From Massilia atriviolacea (GTDB lineage Bacteria; Pseudomonadota; Gammaproteobacteria; Burkholderiales; Burkholderiaceae_D): 64,000 nucleotides of DNA. Positions 38,621 to 46,639 of this stretch are shown here, piece by piece. The notes beneath the pieces were generated by a model. That model was not told where the DNA came from and ran no database searches. It saw only the letters and a list, made by a program, of their open reading frames with translations. The stretch covers positions 70,030 through 134,029 of the forward strand of contig NZ_RXLQ01000017.1 in assembly GCF_003953935.1 (NCBI RefSeq). The letters run 5' to 3'. The translations under genes and the position numbers were made by a program. Numbering within the stretch: position 1 is the first letter of the stretch; every line of letters starts with the position of its first letter.

Positions 38621-39499
38621 ATGCCTGCACCCACGGCCATCGTCGTCCACGGCGGCGCCGGCAACACGCGCGACAATGAAGATGGCTGCGTCCTGGCCGC
38701 CGGCCTCGCCCTGGCCGCCCTGCAGCGCGGCGGCGACGCGCTCGACGCCGCCATTGCGGCGGTGGTCTCGATGGAAGACGACGGCCGCTTCAACGCCGGC
38801 ACCGGTTCGGTGCTGTGCCTGGACGGCCAGACCATCGAAATGGACGCCTCCGTGATGGATACGCACGGACGCCTGGGCTGCGTGGCCTGCATCACGCAGG
38901 TCAGGAACCCGGTGCTGGTGGCGCGCGCGGTGGCCGACGGCCCGCACTGGCTGCTGGCAGGCGACGGCGCGACCCGCTTTGCGCACAACAGCGGCCACGC
39001 GCCGTTTTGCCAGCCGACCGGGCAAGCGCGCCAGGCCCATGCCCGGCTGGTCGCGCAACTCGGCGACAAGCCCCAGTTCGCGCGCCTGTGGAACTACGAA
39101 CGCGCGCTCGAAGACAGCGGCGCGCGCGCCTGCGACACCGTCGGCGCGGTGGTGCGCGGGGCCGACGGCCACTTTGCCGTGGCCAGTTCGACCGGTGGCT
39201 CCGCCCCTTCGCTGCTGGGACGTGTGGGCGACACGCCCATCATCGGCAGCGGCTTTTACGCCGGCACCGGCGGCGCGGTGGCCGCCACCGGCATCGGCGA
39301 GCAGATCGTGCGCCACCTGCTGGCCTACACGGTCTACCAGTGGATCGCCGCCGGCACGCCGCTGGAACTGGCGCTGCAGCGCGGCGTCGACCTGTTCGAC
39401 CCGGCGGTGGCGGTCGGCCTGATCGCGGTCGGCAAAACCGGCCACGCGGCGGTCAGCAACCGCCCCATGCCGCGCGCCGTCGTCTGCCAGGCGGCGTAA
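38621..39499 (+). CDS. iaaA: Isoaspartyl peptidase / plant-type L-asparaginase
   Basis: A 292-residue N-terminal-nucleophile hydrolase of the plant-type asparaginase family. The precursor is predicted to self-cleave before Thr173 in ACDTVGAVV, making alpha and beta subunits; STGGSAPSLLGRVGDTPIIGSGFYA is the typical beta-subunit segment (the usual STGG-LxNK is altered). Such enzymes split isoaspartyl (beta-Asp) dipeptides, and in cyanophycin users they cleave the beta-Asp-Arg dipeptide released by cyanophycinase. The gene heads the cyanophycin cluster, so that role is likely here. GGAG 6 bases upstream of ATG. The next gene is 96 bases on. Confidence 0.9.
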   Translation: MPAPTAIVVHGGAGNTRDNEDGCVLAAGLALAALQRGGDALDAAIAAVVSMEDDGRFNAGTGSVLCLDGQTIEMDASVMDTHGRLGCVACITQVRNPVLVARAVADGPHWLLAGDGATRFAHNSGHAPFCQPTGQARQAHARLVAQLGDKPQFARLWNYERALEDSGARACDTVGAVVRGADGHFAVASSTGGSAPSLLGRVGDTPIIGSGFYAGTGGAVAATGIGEQIVRHLLAYTVYQWIAAGTPLELALQRGVDLFDPAVAVGLIAVGKTGHAAVSNRPMPRAVVCQAA

Positions 39500-39595
39500 T
39501 CGTTGTCTTACACAAGCACAGCTTGGTCACCGATACGAGGCGCGCGGGCCGGCCGCCATAATGAGGCCTCTTTCGAACCCTGATCGCCCGTACCC

Positions 39596-41074
39596 ATGAC
39601 TACCCTGCAAAGCACCGCGTTCGCCGCGCCGCTCCTCACCGCCCCGCGCCACAGCGCGCCCGAGACGGGCAGCTGCCGCGCGCTGTACGACACCCTGTCG
39701 CAAGCCGACCTGGCCGACGGCGCCGAAGCCGACGCCCAGGCTTACCTGGTGGGCCAGCTGGCGCGCGCCGCGTCCCATCCGTGCGACCTGCCCGACAACC
39801 CGGCCGGCCTGGATGGCTGGATCGCGCCGCGCGGCGCCGCCATCGGCGCCGCGTATCAGCAGTACCTGGCCGCGCGACGCGACGGCGCCGCGCGACGCTA
39901 TTTCACAAGCAAGGCGCATGCGCTGTACTTCCTGCGCTGCGTGGCCCCGACCAAGCTGGTGGACGGCGCCTGGCTGTACAGCACCCTGCGGCGCTGGCAG
40001 GAAAACGACTTCCGTCCGCTGCTCAAGACCTATGTCGAAGAACTGGGCGACGGCCTGCCCGACAAGAACCACGTCACGCTGTACCAGCGCCTGCTCGACA
40101 ACCATGGCTGCGCCGACTGGGACGAGCTCGGTGGCGCGCACTTTACCCAGGGCGCGCTGCAACTGGCGCTGGCCTACGCGGGCGAGCGCTTCCTGCCCGA
40201 GATGATCGGCTATAACCTGGGCTACGAACAGCTGCCGCTGCACCTGCTCATCACCGCCTACGAATTGAACGAACTGGGCATCGACCCCTATTACTTCACC
40301 CTGCACATCACGGTCGACAACGGCTCGACCGGGCATGCGCGAGATGCCGTCGATGCGCTGCAACGGGTGATGGCGCGCGCCGCCGACCCGGCCGAATTCT
40401 ACCGGCGCGTGCGCGAAGGCTACAAGCTCAACGAACTGGGCGAAAACACCGCCTCCGTGATCGCCTCCTTCGACCTGGAACAGGAACTGGTGCGCATCCT
40501 CGCCGCCAAGGCCGTGGTCGGACAGAACATGCACAGCGATTACTGCCGCGTGGCCGGCAAGACCATCAACGCCTGGCTGGCCGACCCGGAGCAGATTCCG
40601 ACCCTGCTGCGCGCCTTTGAAACCACCGGCTGGATCAAGCGCGGCGCCGCCCCGCACGAAAGCCGCTTCTGGGGCCTGCTGCAAGGCGACCACGCCGAGA
40701 TGTTCGGCGTCTTCTCCAGCTACGAACAGCAGGTGCTGGCCGACTGGATCGCGTCCCCCGCGCAGGATGGCGAGGCCGCAAGCGCGAGCCCGCGCGTGGC
40801 GTCGTTCCGCGCGCGCCAGCGCGCGCTGGCCCCGGCCCGCAACGCCGCGCCTGCCGAGCACCGCGCGCGCGCCCTGATCCGCTACCCTTACGCCGGCCGG
40901 GCCGGCGAGCACGAAGCCGAAAACGACCAGCTGCGCCGCCTCGAACAGGCGGTGGCGCTGGCGCCGTCGACCAGCGCCGCCATGGAGCTGCTGATCGCGC
41001 ACATGTCGCCGGCGCGCCACCACACGCCCGCCGGCCTGATGGCCACGCGCATGTTCGTGCGCCTGCTCGGCTGA
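39596..41074 (+). CDS. Haem-oxygenase-like diiron oxidase (iron-containing redox enzyme family)
   Basis: A 492-residue protein of the haem-oxygenase-like diiron oxidase (HDO) superfamily, alpha-helical enzymes that activate oxygen on a non-haem diiron centre and catalyse N-oxygenation, C-C or C-N cleavage and desaturation. Likely iron ligands visible: Glu149 and His159 in EELGDGLPDKNH, Glu211 in GYEQLPLH, and His237, Asp241, His247 in LHITVDNGSTGHA, the H-x3-D pattern typical of the superfamily. The N-terminal 130 residues and the C-terminal third (QQVLADWIA to the end) have no assigned domain. It is followed by a methyltransferase gene after 5 bases, cyanophycinase and cyanophycin synthetase. 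Its substrate is unknown; arginine- or aspartate-derived compounds are the obvious guess from neighbours. Confidence 0.85.
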   Translation: MTTLQSTAFAAPLLTAPRHSAPETGSCRALYDTLSQADLADGAEADAQAYLVGQLARAASHPCDLPDNPAGLDGWIAPRGAAIGAAYQQYLAARRDGAARRYFTSKAHALYFLRCVAPTKLVDGAWLYSTLRRWQENDFRPLLKTYVEELGDGLPDKNHVTLYQRLLDNHGCADWDELGGAHFTQGALQLALAYAGERFLPEMIGYNLGYEQLPLHLLITAYELNELGIDPYYFTLHITVDNGSTGHARDAVDALQRVMARAADPAEFYRRVREGYKLNELGENTASVIASFDLEQELVRILAAKAVVGQNMHSDYCRVAGKTINAWLADPEQIPTLLRAFETTGWIKRGAAPHESRFWGLLQGDHAEMFGVFSSYEQQVLADWIASPAQDGEAASASPRVASFRARQRALAPARNAAPAEHRARALIRYPYAGRAGEHEAENDQLRRLEQAVALAPSTSAAMELLIAHMSPARHHTPAGLMATRMFVRLLG

Positions 41075-41079
41075 CCCGC

Positions 41080-42090
41080 ATGAGCGCCTCCATCATCTCC
41101 ATCGACGGCCACCGGCTCGACCAGGCGCCGCCGCTGGGCCAGGCCAGCGACCAGCGGCGCGCCGCGCTGTACGCGCTCGGCTGCGGCCTGAAGCAGCACG
41201 GCTACGCCTTCACCACCGTCACCCCGCTCACCCACAGCCGCGTCAACGCGCGCCTGGCGAGCGGCTGGGCGCACGACCTGGCCGGCATCTTCGGCTGGAG
41301 CCGCGCCTTCAAGCCGGCGGTGATCAACGCCACCCTGCTCGACCTGCTGCACCAGGCCGACATCGTCAACCACGACAACGGCATGCTGCGCAGCGTGCTG
41401 CGCGCCTCGACCCTCGACGGCCAGCTGTACCTGCATTCGGCCTACCCGACCAACGCGGCCGATGCCGTGTTCTTCGGGCCGGACACCTACCGCTTCGTGC
41501 GCGCCCTGCGCGCGTCTCTCGCCGCGCGCACCCTGCCCGTGCGGCGCGCGGCCGACATCGGCTGCGGCGCCGGTCCCGGCGCGATCACCATCGCCCTGGC
41601 CCATCCCGACGCCAGCGTCGTCGCGGTCGACATCAACCCGGCCGCGCTGGTGCTCACCGAGGTCAATGCGCGCATCGCCGGCGTGGGCAATCTCGCCACC
41701 GCCGACAGCAACCTGCTGGCCGCGGTCGACGGCCAGTTCGACCTGATCGTCGCCAATCCGCCCTACCTGATCGACCGCGAGCAGCGCGCCTACCGCCACG
41801 GCGGCGGCGACCTGGGCGCCGGGCTGTCGGTGGCCATCGTGGACGAGGCCATCAAGCGCCTCGCCCCCGGCGGCACGCTGATGCTGTACACCGGCGCAGC
41901 CATCGTCGCCAGCGCCGATCCGTTCCGCCAGGCGGTCGAACCGCGCCTGCGCGCGGCCGGCTTTCACTGGACCTACGACGAAATCGACCCCGACGTCTTC
42001 GGCGAAGAACTCGACGAAGCCCCGTATGCGCACGCGGACCGGATCGCGGCGGTGTGGCTGTGCGCCACCCGCCCGGACGGCGCCGCATGA
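41080..42090 (+). CDS. PrmC-like SAM-dependent methyltransferase
   Basis: A 336-residue class I methyltransferase. The C-terminal half (about 145-325) holds motif I ADIGCGAGPGAITIALA, the acidic VAVDINPAA segment and motif IV DLIVANPPYLI (NPPY), the tetrapeptide of enzymes that methylate planar nitrogens (glutamine amide, adenine, guanine or guanidine-like). The N-terminal 140 residues (ALYALGCGLKQHGY..., FGPDTYRFVRAL) resemble the N-terminal accessory domain of PrmC/RsmC-type enzymes. It starts 5 bases after the diiron oxidase stop and its stop overlaps the cyanophycinase start by ATGA, so all are translated together. The target is unknown. Confidence 0.85.
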   Translation: MSASIISIDGHRLDQAPPLGQASDQRRAALYALGCGLKQHGYAFTTVTPLTHSRVNARLASGWAHDLAGIFGWSRAFKPAVINATLLDLLHQADIVNHDNGMLRSVLRASTLDGQLYLHSAYPTNAADAVFFGPDTYRFVRALRASLAARTLPVRRAADIGCGAGPGAITIALAHPDASVVAVDINPAALVLTEVNARIAGVGNLATADSNLLAAVDGQFDLIVANPPYLIDREQRAYRHGGGDLGAGLSVAIVDEAIKRLAPGGTLMLYTGAAIVASADPFRQAVEPRLRAAGFHWTYDEIDPDVFGEELDEAPYAHADRIAAVWLCATRPDGAA

Positions 42091-42929
42091 GCGCGCCGGC
42101 GCGCGGCAGCCTGCTGGTCATCGGCGGCAGCGAGGACCGCGAGGACGACATGCAGATCCTGGAGCGCTTCGTCCAACTGTGCGGCGGCGCGGACAGGCGC
42201 ATCGTGGTGCTGACCACCGCCAGCCGCGTGCCGGAAAAAATGTGGGCCATCTACGACGCCGCGTTCGGCGGCATGGGCGTGGCGCGGCGCAGCGAAGTCC
42301 GGGTTACCAGCCGCCTCGAAGCGAACGACGCCTCGCTGGCGGACGACGTGGCGCAGGCGGACGGCATCTTCATCACCGGCGGCGACCAGAAACGCCTGCT
42401 GGCGCTGATCGGCGGCACGCTGCTGGACCAGGCCCTGCACGCGGCGCTGGCGCGCGGCGCCTGCATCGCCGGCACCAGCGCGGGCGCGTCGGCCATGTCG
42501 GCCCACATGCTGGCCGACGGCAAAGCCGAACTGCATCCCGAAAAAGGCGCGGTCAGCCTGGGCGCCGGCCTCGGTTTCATGCAGCGGGTGGCGATCGACC
42601 AGCACTTCTCGCAGCGCCAGCGCCTCGCGCGCCTGCTGACGGTCGTCGCGCAGAACCCCTACCTGCTGGGCGTGGGCATCGACGAGGATACGGCGCTGCT
42701 GATCGAAGCCGGCGGCGGCATCGAAATCCTCGGCGCGGGCGCCGTGACAATGATCGACGGCCGCCACATGGTCTCGAACGTGGCCGACATCCGCCAGCGC
42801 GCCGTGCCCGAGATGGTGGACGTGCGATTGCACCTGCTGCCGGCCGGGTCGCGCTACGGCGCGCAAGGCGACCCCGCCACGCCGGCCGCCCTGGCCGATT
42901 TTTTGAACATCGTTACCGACATCGCCTAG
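42087..42929 (+). CDS. cphB: Cyanophycinase
   Basis: A 280-residue serine exopeptidase of family S51 that cuts cyanophycin to beta-Asp-Arg dipeptides. Motifs: LLVIGGSEDREDDMQIL, VVLTTASRVPEKMWAIYD, FITGGDQKRLL and the nucleophile elbow IAGTSAGASAMS (Ser131), VAIDQHFSQRQRLARLL and IDEDTALLIE. Length and motif spacing match CphB. The ATG lies in an ATGA overlap with the methyltransferase stop; the cyanophycin synthetase starts 5 bases after its stop. With the isoaspartyl peptidase of the cluster it gives a full route from polymer to Asp and Arg. Confidence 0.94.
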   Translation: MSAPARGSLLVIGGSEDREDDMQILERFVQLCGGADRRIVVLTTASRVPEKMWAIYDAAFGGMGVARRSEVRVTSRLEANDASLADDVAQADGIFITGGDQKRLLALIGGTLLDQALHAALARGACIAGTSAGASAMSAHMLADGKAELHPEKGAVSLGAGLGFMQRVAIDQHFSQRQRLARLLTVVAQNPYLLGVGIDEDTALLIEAGGGIEILGAGAVTMIDGRHMVSNVADIRQRAVPEMVDVRLHLLPAGSRYGAQGDPATPAALADFLNIVTDIA

Positions 42930-42934
42930 AGACT

Positions 42935-45559
42935 ATGCATATCATCGAACAGCGGGTCCTGCGCGGCCCCAATCGCTGGTCGCGCCTGACCTGCCTGCAA
43001 ACCGTCATCGACATTGGCGACATGCCGGCCATCGGCCCCGCCTTCGCCAGCGCGCTGCTGGCGCAATTGCCCGGCATGGCCCAACGGCGCAGCTACACGA
43101 CCATCGCCCACGCCGTGGAGCTGGCGGCGCTGGAGCTGCAGGCCGTGGCGGGCACGCCGGTCAGCTTCGCCGCCACCGCCAGCATCGGCAACGTCGGCAA
43201 TGTCGGGAACGTCGGCAACATGCGCTGGCGCATCGTCGTCGCCTACCAGCGCGAAGCCGTCGCCATCGAGGCCATGGCGCTGGCGCTGGACATGGTGCGG
43301 GCAGCGGCGCGCGCCGACACGCCCGATTGGAGCGAGCGCGTCGATGCGCTGCGCGAGGTGGCAGAGCGCGGCGCCGTCGGCACCAGCACGGCGGCCGTGC
43401 TCGATGCGGCCCGGGCGCGCGGGATTCCCGTGCTGCGCCTGACCGATGAAGCCAATCTGTTCCAGCTGGGCTGGGGCAGCCGCCAGAAACGCCTGCAGGC
43501 GACCGTGACCGGCGCCACCTCCACCATCGCGGTCGGCATCGCCAGCAACAAGCAATTGACCAAGACCCTGCTGGAACAAGGCGGCATCCCGGTGCCCAAG
43601 GGCGACGTGGCGACGACGGCCGACGAGGCGGTGGCGCTGGCGGCGCGCCTGCGCTACCCGGTCACCGTCAAGCCGCTCGACGCCAACCAGGGCAAGGGCG
43701 TCACCACCGAGTGCCACGACCAGGAAGCCGTGCGCAGCGCCTTCGACTTCGCGCGCCAGTTCGGGCGGCGCGTCATCGTCGAACGCTTCATCGCCGGGCG
43801 CGACTACCGGCTGCTGGTCACCGGCGGCAGGCTGGCCGCCGCCTCGCTGCGCCGCCCGCCCGCCATTACCGGCGACGGCGCATCCACCGTGCGGGCGCTG
43901 GTCGAACTGGAAAACCGCAACCCGGCGCGCGGCGACGGCCATGCCAACATCCTCACGCGCCTGCGCCTGGACGAGCTGGCCCTGGCGCTGCTGGCGGAAC
44001 AGGGCTACACGCCCGATTCGGTGCTCCCTGCCGGGTTGGAAGTGCGGCTGCGCGGGAACGCCAACCTGTCCACCGGCGGCACCGCCGAAGACGTGACCGA
44101 CCTGGTCCACCCGTCCACGCGCGAGATGTGCATCCGCGCCGCGCGCATCATCGGCCTGGACGTGGCCGGGATCGACGTCATCTGCGGCGACATCGGGCTG
44201 TGCCTGCGCGCCCAGCGCGGCGCCGTGATCGAAGTCAATGCCGCACCGGGCATCCGCATGCACGAATACCCGAGCCAGGGCCAGGCCCGCCAAGCCGGCG
44301 ACGCCATCGCCCTGGCCATGTTCGGCCAGGGCGACGGCCGCATTCCGGTCATCGCAGTGACCGGCACCAACGGCAAGACCACCACCTCGCTGATGATCGC
44401 CCACGCCGCGCGCCTGGCCGGCCTGTGCACGGGAGTGACCACCACCGAAGGCGTGTTCATCGACGGCCACCGCATCATCGAGGGCGACTGCGCCGGCTAC
44501 CATTCGGCGCGCACCGTGCTCGCCACGCCGACGGTCGATATCGCGGTGCTGGAAACGGCGCGCGGCGGTATCCTCAAACGCGGCCTGGCCTTCGACCGCT
44601 GCGCGGTGGCGGTGGTGCTGAACGTCTCGGCCGACCATCTGGGCCTGGACGGCGTGGAAACCGTGGCCGAACTGGCGGGCGTGAAAGCGGTGGTGGCCAG
44701 CGCCGCCTCGCGCGCGGTGGTGCTCAACGCCGACGACCGCCTGTGCGTGGCGATGAGCGCCCAGGTCTCGGCCGAGGTGGAGCGGATCTTCTTTTCGATG
44801 GAGCCGGACAACCCGGTGCTGCTGCGCCACCTGGATAACGGCGGTCGCGCCGCCTACTACCAGGACGATGCGCTGATCCTGGCCGACGGCTCGCGCAGGC
44901 TGGAACTGCTGCGCGCCGGACGCATGCCGTCCAGCCTGGACGGCCACGCGCGCTATAACATCGCCAACGCGCTGGCGGCATCGGCCGCGCTGATGGGGGC
45001 CGATTTTACCCATGCGCAGATCGCCACGGCGCTGTCGACCTTCGTCTCGGACGCCGGCAACAATCCGCTGCGCTCGAACATCTACAGCGCGCAGGGCGTG
45101 ACCATCGTGGTCGACTACGCGCACAATCCGGCGGCCTACGCGGCCATGGCATCGATGGCCCAGTCCTTGTCGGGCGCACGGCGCATCGCGGTGCTCACCT
45201 GCCCGGGCGACCGGCGCGAAGCCGACCTGCTCGACATCGGCCACACCTGCGCCGACGGTTTCGACGAACTGTTCGTGTACGAAGCCGACCCGCGCGGGCG
45301 CGCCAGCGGCGAGACAGCCGAAAAAATCCTCGATGGCGCGCGCCGCGCCGGCAAAGAAGAGCGCCTGCTGCACGCCATCGTGCCGGTCAGCGAGGCCTTC
45401 GCGGCGGCGATGGCATGCTGCAGGCCGGGCGACGTGCTGGTATTTGCCTGCGGGTCGGCCGCCACCGCCCTGCGCGAAACGGCGCGCTACGTGGATCAGC
45501 GGGTTGGCGCGCCGGCCGCCGCGCCGTCAGTACATCAGGCTACCATCGCGCTTGAATAA
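42935..45559 (+). CDS. cphA: Cyanophycin synthetase
   Basis: An 874-residue enzyme of the CphA1 kind. It makes a poly-Asp chain with Arg joined to each beta-carboxyl by isopeptide bonds, using two ATP. Parts seen: an N-terminal domain (about 1-160) including an IGNVGNVGNVGN repeat, an ATP-grasp domain (about 190-460; KGVTTECHDQEAV, IVERFIAGRDYRLLVTGG, EVNAAPGIRMH), and a Mur-ligase-like domain (about 470-720; P-loop VTGTNGKTTT with Lys481, LETARGGILKRGLAFD), then a Mur C-terminal domain (VVDYAHNPAAYAAMASM). Length equals typical CphA. It ends the cluster and overlaps the convergent binding-protein gene by 33 bases. Confidence 0.94.
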   Translation: MHIIEQRVLRGPNRWSRLTCLQTVIDIGDMPAIGPAFASALLAQLPGMAQRRSYTTIAHAVELAALELQAVAGTPVSFAATASIGNVGNVGNVGNMRWRIVVAYQREAVAIEAMALALDMVRAAARADTPDWSERVDALREVAERGAVGTSTAAVLDAARARGIPVLRLTDEANLFQLGWGSRQKRLQATVTGATSTIAVGIASNKQLTKTLLEQGGIPVPKGDVATTADEAVALAARLRYPVTVKPLDANQGKGVTTECHDQEAVRSAFDFARQFGRRVIVERFIAGRDYRLLVTGGRLAAASLRRPPAITGDGASTVRALVELENRNPARGDGHANILTRLRLDELALALLAEQGYTPDSVLPAGLEVRLRGNANLSTGGTAEDVTDLVHPSTREMCIRAARIIGLDVAGIDVICGDIGLCLRAQRGAVIEVNAAPGIRMHEYPSQGQARQAGDAIALAMFGQGDGRIPVIAVTGTNGKTTTSLMIAHAARLAGLCTGVTTTEGVFIDGHRIIEGDCAGYHSARTVLATPTVDIAVLETARGGILKRGLAFDRCAVAVVLNVSADHLGLDGVETVAELAGVKAVVASAASRAVVLNADDRLCVAMSAQVSAEVERIFFSMEPDNPVLLRHLDNGGRAAYYQDDALILADGSRRLELLRAGRMPSSLDGHARYNIANALAASAALMGADFTHAQIATALSTFVSDAGNNPLRSNIYSAQGVTIVVDYAHNPAAYAAMASMAQSLSGARRIAVLTCPGDRREADLLDIGHTCADGFDELFVYEADPRGRASGETAEKILDGARRAGKEERLLHAIVPVSEAFAAAMACCRPGDVLVFACGSAATALRETARYVDQRVGAPAAAPSVHQATIALE
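43184..43219 (+). repeat. Four 9-base tandem repeats inside cphA
   Basis: Four units of the pattern (A/G)TC-GG(C/G)-AA(C/T) encode Ile/Val-Gly-Asn repeated four times in the N-terminal domain of cyanophycin synthetase, probably a variable surface loop. Confidence 0.85.
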
Positions 45560-46639
45560 GGCGATGTCCACGAACTCGGACATGGTGCTCTTGCGGTCGG
45601 ACGGCTGGATCGTCATGCCGCCGATATCGATCGGCGTGCGACTGGCGGCGATGGTCTGCAAGCCGCCCTTGCCGGCCGCTTCCATCTGAATCACCTTCAC
45701 CAGCGTCTTGGCGACCGCAAAGCCTTCGAGCGTGATGGCCGATACCGGCTCGTCGCGGAACTTCTTCATCATGTCGATGTGCTCGGACTGCAGCACCGAT
45801 GCGGTGCTGCCCGGGTTCGGCACCACCTGCGAGAACACGGTCCACTCGGTGGCGCGCGCGCCGGCGATTTCGCTCAGGGTGGCCAGGTTGATCAGCGAGG
45901 TCCCGGCCACGAAGGTGCTGGCGTCATGCTTGCGGAAGGCCTTGAGGAACTGCGAAGCGCCGATGGTATCGGCAATCATCAGCACCACCTTGGCGCCGGA
46001 CCCGCTTAACTGCCTGGCGTCGGCATCGATATTGGCCGACACCCGCACCGTGCCGGCCAGGGTCATGCCGCGCTTGCGCAGTTCTTCGGACACCATCTCG
46101 TAGGTTTTCCGGTTCTGCGGGGTGTCCTGCAGGACGATCCCGACTTTTTTCAGTCCCAGCTTGTCGAAGTAAGCCAGGATGAACTGGCACTCGCGCTCCA
46201 TGCTCGGGCGCCAGAAAATCACGCGTCCGCGCGGTGCGGCGAACGAATCGGTCAGCGGCGCAAACAGCACATGGCGCGAGTCGGCAAAGGCCGGCGCGGC
46301 CAGGATGGCCTGGGTCGACTCGGGGCCGATGGCGCCGAGCAGGTAGCTGACCCGGTCGTGCTGGATCAGGCCGCTCGCCAGCCTGGCCGATTCGGCCGCC
46401 ACGCCGCGGTCGTCGCGCACGGTATAGACGATCTTCTTGCCGTTGATGCCGCCCTTGACGTTAACGCTGTCGAAATAAGTGGTGATGCCGGCCACGTAAT
46501 CGCGGCCGATGGCGCCGTTGGGGCCGGACAGGTCGATGGCGTGGCCGACCACGATTTGCGCGCTGGCGCCGGCGGCCAGAGCCAGCAGGGTTACACAAAC
46601 GCTCATGGCCAGCCACAGGGCACGGATACAGGACTTCAC
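45527..46639 (-). CDS. Leu/Ile/Val-type ABC transporter substrate-binding protein
   Basis: A 370-residue periplasmic binding protein of the branched-chain amino acid type (type I fold, Peripla_BP_6). Signal peptide to about residue 27 (ending ASAQ), then IVVGHAIDLSGPNGAIGRDYVAGITTYFDSVNVKGGINGKKI, the usual opening, a LLGAIGPESTQAILAAPAFA segment and KKVGIVLQDTPQNRKTYEMV. No permease or ATPase gene is adjacent, so it works with remote components or as a sensor partner. The gene converges on cphA, overlapping 33 bases. The link to cyanophycin is not proven, yet an amino-acid binder beside an Asp/Arg store is suggestive. Confidence 0.88.
   Translation of the reverse strand: MKSCIRALWLAMSVCVTLLALAAGASAQIVVGHAIDLSGPNGAIGRDYVAGITTYFDSVNVKGGINGKKIVYTVRDDRGVAAESARLASGLIQHDRVSYLLGAIGPESTQAILAAPAFADSRHVLFAPLTDSFAAPRGRVIFWRPSMERECQFILAYFDKLGLKKVGIVLQDTPQNRKTYEMVSEELRKRGMTLAGTVRVSANIDADARQLSGSGAKVVLMIADTIGASQFLKAFRKHDASTFVAGTSLINLATLSEIAGARATEWTVFSQVVPNPGSTASVLQSEHIDMMKKFRDEPVSAITLEGFAVAKTLVKVIQMEAAGKGGLQTIAASRTPIDIGGMTIQPSDRKSTMSEFVDIALFKRDGSLMY

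Follow-up and report, generated by a model that had tools for sequence, protein, structure and literature searches.

A Massilia gene cluster that may couple cyanophycin turnover to a DtpC-type diiron oxidase and a methyltransferase

The window analyzed here, a stretch of 64,000 nucleotides from Massilia atriviolacea, carries five consecutive genes encoding an isoaspartyl aminopeptidase (iaaA), a haem-oxygenase-like diiron oxidase (HDO), a methyltransferase (MT), a cyanophycinase (cphB), and a cyanophycin synthetase (cphA). We tentatively propose, at somewhat less than an even chance, that the five genes act as one functional unit, coupling a dedicated cyanophycin cycle to an oxidative and methylating module that makes a protective small molecule. 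An original prediction, made from the sequence alone, had suggested that the oxidase and the MT may modify arginine, the beta-Asp-Arg dipeptide, or the polymer. To this we add homology of HDO to the desiccation and oxidative-stress factor DtpC, an independent HDO-MT module, a tie between strong-scoring cyanophycinase and HDO-bearing genomes, and, at the linked loci, CphA relatives that lack the ATP-grasp (G) domain. Cyanophycin metabolism, HDO chemistry, and DtpC, which stand apart in those parts of the literature that we examined, are thereby brought together, and the Massilia operon offers a metabolic setting (arginine, Asp-Arg, and S-adenosylmethionine [SAM]) for DtpC-type HDOs.

By established chemistry, CphA joins aspartate and arginine, CphB releases beta-Asp-Arg from the polymer, and this dipeptide is in turn split by IaaA. 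In the proposed unit, these three enzymes would supply, store, or join amino acids for the product of HDO and MT. The MT would methylate a nitrogen of an arginine-derived compound, or else of free arginine or beta-Asp-Arg, and HDO, as an O2-activating diiron enzyme, would oxidize (perhaps N-oxygenate) the same kind of compound. The product would be an N-methylated and/or N-oxygenated small molecule that is protective in drying or oxidative stress. We infer the reaction types from fold and family, including predicted structures. The product and its protective role are guesses, the latter drawing on the DtpC homology and on gene neighbours elsewhere.

Organization and conservation of the cluster

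The five open reading frames (ORFs) lie on the plus strand and are separated by 96, 5, −4, and 5 bases. The first, iaaA (38621-39499), encodes an isoaspartyl aminopeptidase/beta-aspartyl peptidase of 292 amino acids (Asparaginase_2, PF01112, 213.7 bits) and is set slightly apart from the other four by the 96 bases before the HDO gene. HDO (39596-41074; 492 amino acids) is of the DtpC type (PF14518, 99.3 bits) and is followed by MT (41080-42090; 336 amino acids), a SAM-dependent, PrmC-like enzyme with an NPPY motif (MTS/PrmC-like; 71.7 bits for the PrmC model), whose stop overlaps the cphB start by 4 bases. The last two genes encode a cyanophycinase of 280 amino acids (cphB, 42087-42929; TIGR02069, 254.6 bits) and a cyanophycin synthetase of 874 amino acids with N, G, and M (Mur ligase) domains (cphA, 42935-45559; TIGR02068, 919.7 bits), their starts being placed by homologues in relatives. 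ORF coordinates and family matches bear out the gene order and the +5/−4/+5 spacing of the last four genes given in the original prediction, and these four genes appear to be translated together.

Six close Massilia genomes (L032 to L035, L177, and L178) share the order HDO-MT-cphB-cphA; in two of them (L033 and L035), iaaA is absent beside the cluster. As this order is kept and the linkage also recurs in the family, we rejected a chance arrangement in a single genome as the explanation. The ratio of nonsynonymous to synonymous substitution rates is 0.12 to 0.26 for the cluster genes against three Massilia relatives (two of the three for iaaA), pointing to purifying selection. The host genome (7.36 Mb), to which Massilia aquatica is close (HDO 92% identical), contains three cphA matches, namely, the window copy and an adjacent pair elsewhere, one of which falls below the family cut-off.

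Linkage of HDO, MT, and cyanophycin genes across the family

We surveyed 294 genomes of the family. HDO was found in 90 (E ≤ 1e-3), MT in 67 (E ≤ 1e-30), cphA in 248 (E ≤ 1e-100; copy numbers are lower bounds, with at most three candidates scored per genome), and cyanophycinase in 88 (E ≤ 1e-40). A strong cyanophycinase class comprised 55 of these 88 genomes, with at least 205 bits (E up to 1.5e-60, the next match being at 1.2e-45). HDO was carried by 65 of the 67 MT-bearing genomes versus 25 of the 227 without MT and by 51 of the 55 strong-cyanophycinase genomes versus 39 of the 239 others; strong cyanophycinase is nearly confined to HDO-bearing genomes. In the accessible part of PMC10206079, a recognizable cyanophycinase is given for 2.8% of the beta-proteobacterial CphA1 genomes counted. 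A weaker cyanophycinase-like class (about 143 to 157 bits, with ORFs of more than 400 amino acids in the cases listed) is found both in HDO-bearing genomes and in others; the host genome carries one weaker cyanophycinase-like protein (C5:37450-38163).

Gene neighbourhoods were compared at 82 HDO loci in 81 genomes. Within 8 kb, cphA was present at 49, MT at 29, both at 19, and neither at 23. Not counted were weak, partial, or distant HDO matches in nine genomes (G067, G129, G144, G155, G177, G201, G228, G282, and G288), a weak additional match in each of G181 and G192, and the duplicate of an identical pair in G207; G091 enters twice. One HDO, at L075 (G094), is split over two frames. Absence of cphA or MT is unsure on short contigs (for example, L096, 3,608 bases; L098, 8,277; L070, 8,681; L069, 8,778) and where the stretch ends early. 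The cph link was seen at 10 of 11 loci of genus code g1, at all 24 of g18, at all 14 of g40, and at 1 of 3 of g6, and was not seen at the HDO loci of eleven other genus codes whose flanks were read. Gene orders at the linked loci vary (HDO-MT-cphB-cphA, HDO-cphB-cphA, HDO-cphA, HDO-MT-iaaA-cphB-cphA, and HDO-cphB-cphA convergent with MT-CphA), and three genomes with a cph-linked HDO (G040, G113, and G188) have no MT match. On a tree of 97 HDO sequences, linkage to cph shows 5 changes and linkage to MT shows 12; this tree and the M-domain tree described below are quick trees with long-branch warnings.

The original prediction stood to lose if the two genes lay mostly apart from cphA and cphB in related genomes, and this is half the case. 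Of the 50 MT genomes with flanks read, 20 have MT next to cphA (the other 17 of the 67 are all g18; in the g18 genomes read, MT lies at a separate locus with other neighbours), and 33 of the 82 HDO loci have no cphA within 8 kb. The latter count led us to reject, as a general account, an exclusive role of HDO and MT in cyanophycin metabolism.

HDO is a putative DtpC-family oxidase

Homology along the chain and the kept E, H, and H residues place HDO in the DtpC family. Acinetobacter homologues were found by tblastn of plasmids, and the window HDO shares 36% identity with Acinetobacter baumannii DtpC over 450 amino acids (E = 1e-98), the C-terminal part included; DtpC E143, H153, and H232 align with HDO E149, H159, and H237. 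Two features identify the A. baumannii homologue as DtpC: counted from the correct start codon, positions 143, 153, and 232 hold E, H, and H, and a catalase gene follows after 54 bases, in agreement with the printed dtpC-katE. According to the accessible part of PMC13232832, DtpC and KatE act redundantly in survival of drying; the ligand residues of DtpC are required for its protective effect; DtpC limits H2O2 in dried cells, where iron chelation helps dtpC mutants; and its authors keep three options, namely, iron sequestration, scavenging, and small-molecule synthesis. Whereas A. baumannii dtpC forms an operon with katE in that account, the window HDO lies beside MT and cyanophycin genes.

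The PF14518 (Haem_oxygenas_2) match spans HDO residues 111 to 278. Spacing and the DtpC alignment predict E149, H159, E211, H237, D241, and H247 as metal ligands, positions that are kept in 98 to 101 of 103 aligned rows (the printed exceptions being divergent paralogues), and HDO accordingly appears to combine the PF14518 fold with the three histidine and three carboxylate ligands of its family. N-oxygenases of the 3H/4C (SznF) type carry one more carboxylate ligand, the seventh. A candidate for this position, D123, lies 26 residues before E149 and is aspartate in 97 of the 103 rows and glutamate in 4. It aligns with a glutamate of 9pfw only at a weak profile E value of 0.55, and we take its counterpart in SznF to be E189.

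A structural model of HDO (AlphaFold 2 [AF2], 10 sequences) reached a predicted local distance difference test score (pLDDT) of 77.8 at best (46.8 to 61.8 for the other four models), with values below 50 at residues 238 to 245, in the metal site, and poor prediction of residues 391 to 438. The best solved Foldseek matches were RohS (E = 0.013), SznF (E = 0.014), and HrmI (E = 0.078), all of them N-oxygenases, with BesC and CADD ranking lower; probabilities were 0.97 to 1.00 for most chains of the top matches, and no E value was below 0.001. The match to RohS, the azomycin N-oxygenase (9pfx), had a probability of 1.00, and the best PDB profile match was on the RohS side as well (9pfw, "iron-containing redox enzyme"), at the nonsignificant E value of 0.55 given above. 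The solved RohS chains comprise 289 and 306 residues, and the window HDO extends further at its C terminus by about 190 residues. The E-H spacing of 10 and the H-D spacing of 4 are those of SznF E215/H225 and H311/D315 (residues from the accessible part of PMC11705231), whereas the E211-H237 spacing is 26 rather than 30 and the last histidine follows the first by 10 rather than 7 residues. HDO also lacks the cupin with which the C-terminal part of SznF makes its N-N bond: Pfam found none, and the model is helical, with no beta barrel after residue 294, so N-N bond formation of the SznF type is not expected. From family and modelled fold, we infer that HDO catalyzes an O2-dependent oxidation, perhaps of nitrogen.

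The DtpC homology also feeds an alternative that we consider unlikely but far from negligible, in which the genes share a stress-and-storage regulon and no chemistry. HDO would then be protective in itself, by sequestering iron or by using up O2 or peroxide, as has been considered for DtpC; the cph genes would be needed in the same dry, starved state, and MT would modify something unrelated. The printed effects of DtpC on H2O2 in dried cells and the rescue of dtpC mutants by iron chelation agree with this (PMC13232832, accessible part), as does a Comamonadaceae plasmid (L124) on which an HDO homologue lies with YsnF/AvaK and ferritin-like genes and no cph gene or MT. The protective role in the coupled pathway, for its part, is favoured by two Acinetobacter plasmid HDO homologues that lie with catalase and trehalose genes and by HDO-MT pairs near trehalose genes in L066 (TreY match and MalQ), L112 (TreY/TreZ), and L114 (TreS). 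Such stress-type neighbours are suggestive only, as there is no background rate for these genes; the scan of HDO loci without cph covered 53 and 42 chosen genes, with the 25 most frequent families listed. Against a mere regulon stand the tight HDO-MT-cphB-cphA spacing in the window, the near confinement of MT to HDO-bearing genomes (65 of 67), and HDO-MT pairs that are kept in head-to-tail, divergent, and convergent layouts.

Cyanophycin enzymes and CphA relatives without a G domain

Both cyanophycin enzymes score above their family cut-offs (254.6 versus 126.6 bits for CphB and 919.7 versus 850 bits for CphA). CphA keeps K220, R309, R323, N394, S396, R458, the P-loop, and D585/H586, with numbering transferred by hand from an alignment and the residue roles, such as aspartate and ATP binding in the G domain, taken from the accessible parts of PMC9427784 and PMC9262961. 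By family score and these checked active-site residues, with H267Q and E215I as exceptions, it is a predicted cyanophycin synthetase of the CphA1 kind. Both changes are shared with the host genome's other copy (L137), and we therefore rejected the idea that the window CphA is odd for having Q at position 267. The primer-cutting motif of the N domain, HxxEH, reads HAVEL.

The cluster resembles known cphB-cphA(-iaaA) clusters (PMC10206079, accessible part) in having the same three enzymes adjacent. It differs in that "heme oxygenase" is absent from that part of the paper and a methyltransferase appears there only as isoaspartyl O-methyltransferase. Literature searches joining cyanophycin with HDO terms gave no mention of cyanophycin among the matches listed, and one joining it with "iron-containing redox enzyme" gave no match.

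At 15 fetched loci (14 distinct, as L040 and L077 are the same organism), a CphA relative has no recognizable G domain, the one that adds aspartate, and an intact M domain, the ligase domain that adds arginine. Examples are L099:10857-12758, L040:5939-7777, L165:6237-7979, and L146:3303-5468. These G-less forms keep the motifs TGTNGKTT, LNVSxDHLG, and D(Y/F)AHN; in L086 and L087, a remnant of the G region persists without its catalytic residues. A tree of M domains (80 rows, 14 G-less) shows at least four changes of the G-less state, which we read as losses: one clade holds 11 G-less rows in which genus codes g1 and g40 are mixed, and the other three events are single, rather long branches. 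In L099, an orthologous cluster with the same genus code as the window, the G-less form is the sole CphA, and in g40, MT lies directly upstream of a G-less CphA at seven loci (L081, L095, L146, L151, L157, L162, and L169). All were sampled at loci chosen for HDO or MT, and they are not known to be confined there. An enzyme that couples an amine to the side chain of an aspartyl residue and adds no backbone aspartate would fit the making of a small beta-aspartyl amide or a helper role to a full CphA, so the G-less CphAs may be Mur-type ligases that make beta-aspartyl amides without polymerizing.

These proteins suggest a variant that we hold to be improbable, in which the loci yield a cyanophycin that has been modified or a beta-aspartyl amide of a new kind. 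HDO and MT would provide arginine or another amine in N-methylated or N-oxygenated form, the dedicated CphA, above all in its G-less form, would attach it to aspartate side chains, and CphB and IaaA would release it from a drying-protective, O2-derived store. If this were true, the result would be a cyanophycin-like store with a chemically tailored side chain.

HDO and MT away from cyanophycin genes

HDO and MT also form a pair without cphA within 8 kb at 10 of the 82 family loci, at three loci of another family of the same taxonomic order (L111, L112, and L114), in other families of the class (L130 and L131), and in Nevskia (L036, a 5-kb contig). The pair is divergent in L111, L112, and L114 and convergent in L080, and its persistence in varied orientations argues for a kept functional link. 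In L080, a 969-amino-acid gene beside MT was considered as a trehalose enzyme and rejected, as it encodes a histidine-kinase-type protein.

Elsewhere, MT keeps other company. In L053 to L056 and in Variovorax L126, it leads a run of genes for an ATP-grasp-like protein, which has no Pfam match but is a relative of the G domain of CphA (hhalign, 97.5%), a PF13444 acyltransferase (presumably of the OlsB type, with FeeM matched weakly), and a major facilitator superfamily transporter. In Komagataeibacter, MT adjoins a different, shorter PF14518 protein, with a divergent copy of the ATP-grasp-like family on the plasmid (L125:5911-8843). On two Sphingobium plasmids (L127 and L128), an MT relative overlaps a dicarboxylate/amino-acid symporter gene by 4 bases.

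The MT-led runs favour a small-molecule pathway that uses different amide ligases. They also lend weight to a reading to which we give a low probability, in which HDO and MT work on another substrate and build a natural product that is an amino acid other than arginine or an acyl-amino acid, with CphA-type or ATP-grasp ligases swapped in for amide formation; the Nevskia pair, convergent with an acyltransferase and a transporter, agrees with it too. What speaks for the arginine-based pathway instead is that the cph-linked loci in the window's family carry the cyanophycin set with its degradative enzymes, which points to Asp-Arg.

MT resembles N-methyltransferases

MT is a class I SAM enzyme. 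NPPY motifs typically mark N-methyltransferases. The closest curated models are PrmC/HemK, and identity with PrmC itself was rejected (TIGR03534, 71.7 bits versus the equivalog cut-off of 199.1). A model built from 7 sequences (pLDDT, 70.8) gave as top Foldseek matches a gentamicin-pathway methyltransferase, which we take to be the N-methyltransferase GenN; AerE, a peptide N-methyltransferase; and PrmC; with the carbamoyl N-methyltransferase Asc-Orf2 slightly lower. Since these matches include N-methyltransferases, the reaction that we consider likeliest is methylation at the nitrogen of an amine, amide, or guanidine; the modelled fold is one common to many methyltransferases. That MT instead modifies a protein such as CphA or HDO is quite unlikely: the PrmC/HemK models, PrmC among the fold matches, and the presence of HDO elsewhere in nearly all genomes with a lone MT locus (65 of the 67 MT genomes) would suit it, but the scores lie far under the PrmC cut-offs and the top fold matches are natural-product-pathway enzymes, though AerE acts on a peptide.

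Weighing the coupled pathway

The arginine-modifying part of the original prediction drew on streptozotocin biosynthesis, where SznE methylates the guanidine of arginine and SznF N-oxygenates it, and the window indeed resembles that system in pairing a methyltransferase with an HDO that has SznF among its top fold matches. The recurrent link of HDO, MT, and cph genes and the N-oxygenase-like and N-methyltransferase-like folds support the prediction in part, with arginine as a possible target, and "methylate plus N-oxygenate" is a fair reading of the two folds; HDO differs from SznF in lacking a cupin.

Several points weigh against a coupled pathway. Its substrate (arginine, beta-Asp-Arg, or a derivative) is its weak point, a guess from the company that the genes keep. 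The HDO Foldseek E values are weak, from 0.013 for RohS and 0.014 for SznF to 0.078 for HrmI. Genome and locus counts are uncorrected for shared ancestry, and because the cph link changes only 5 times on the HDO tree, it may stem from a single recruitment, or a few, and have then been kept through rearrangement. Twenty-five HDO genomes have no MT match, and four (G031, G046, G066, and G071) have HDO and MT and no cphA match at E ≤ 1e-100, three of these four being less than 90% complete. The A. baumannii dtpC record has no MT orthologue (best E value, 1.5e-8, with two short SAM-domain matches), and dtpC has no cph neighbour there within 6 kb. Finally, none of the catalase or trehalose proteins tried has a match in the window.

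Downstream flank

A gene for a periplasmic binding protein lies convergent to cphA on the minus strand (45527-46639), and the ends of the two genes share 33 bases (45527-45559). In M. aquatica (L032), cphA and the convergent periplasmic-binding-protein gene lie about 700 bases apart.

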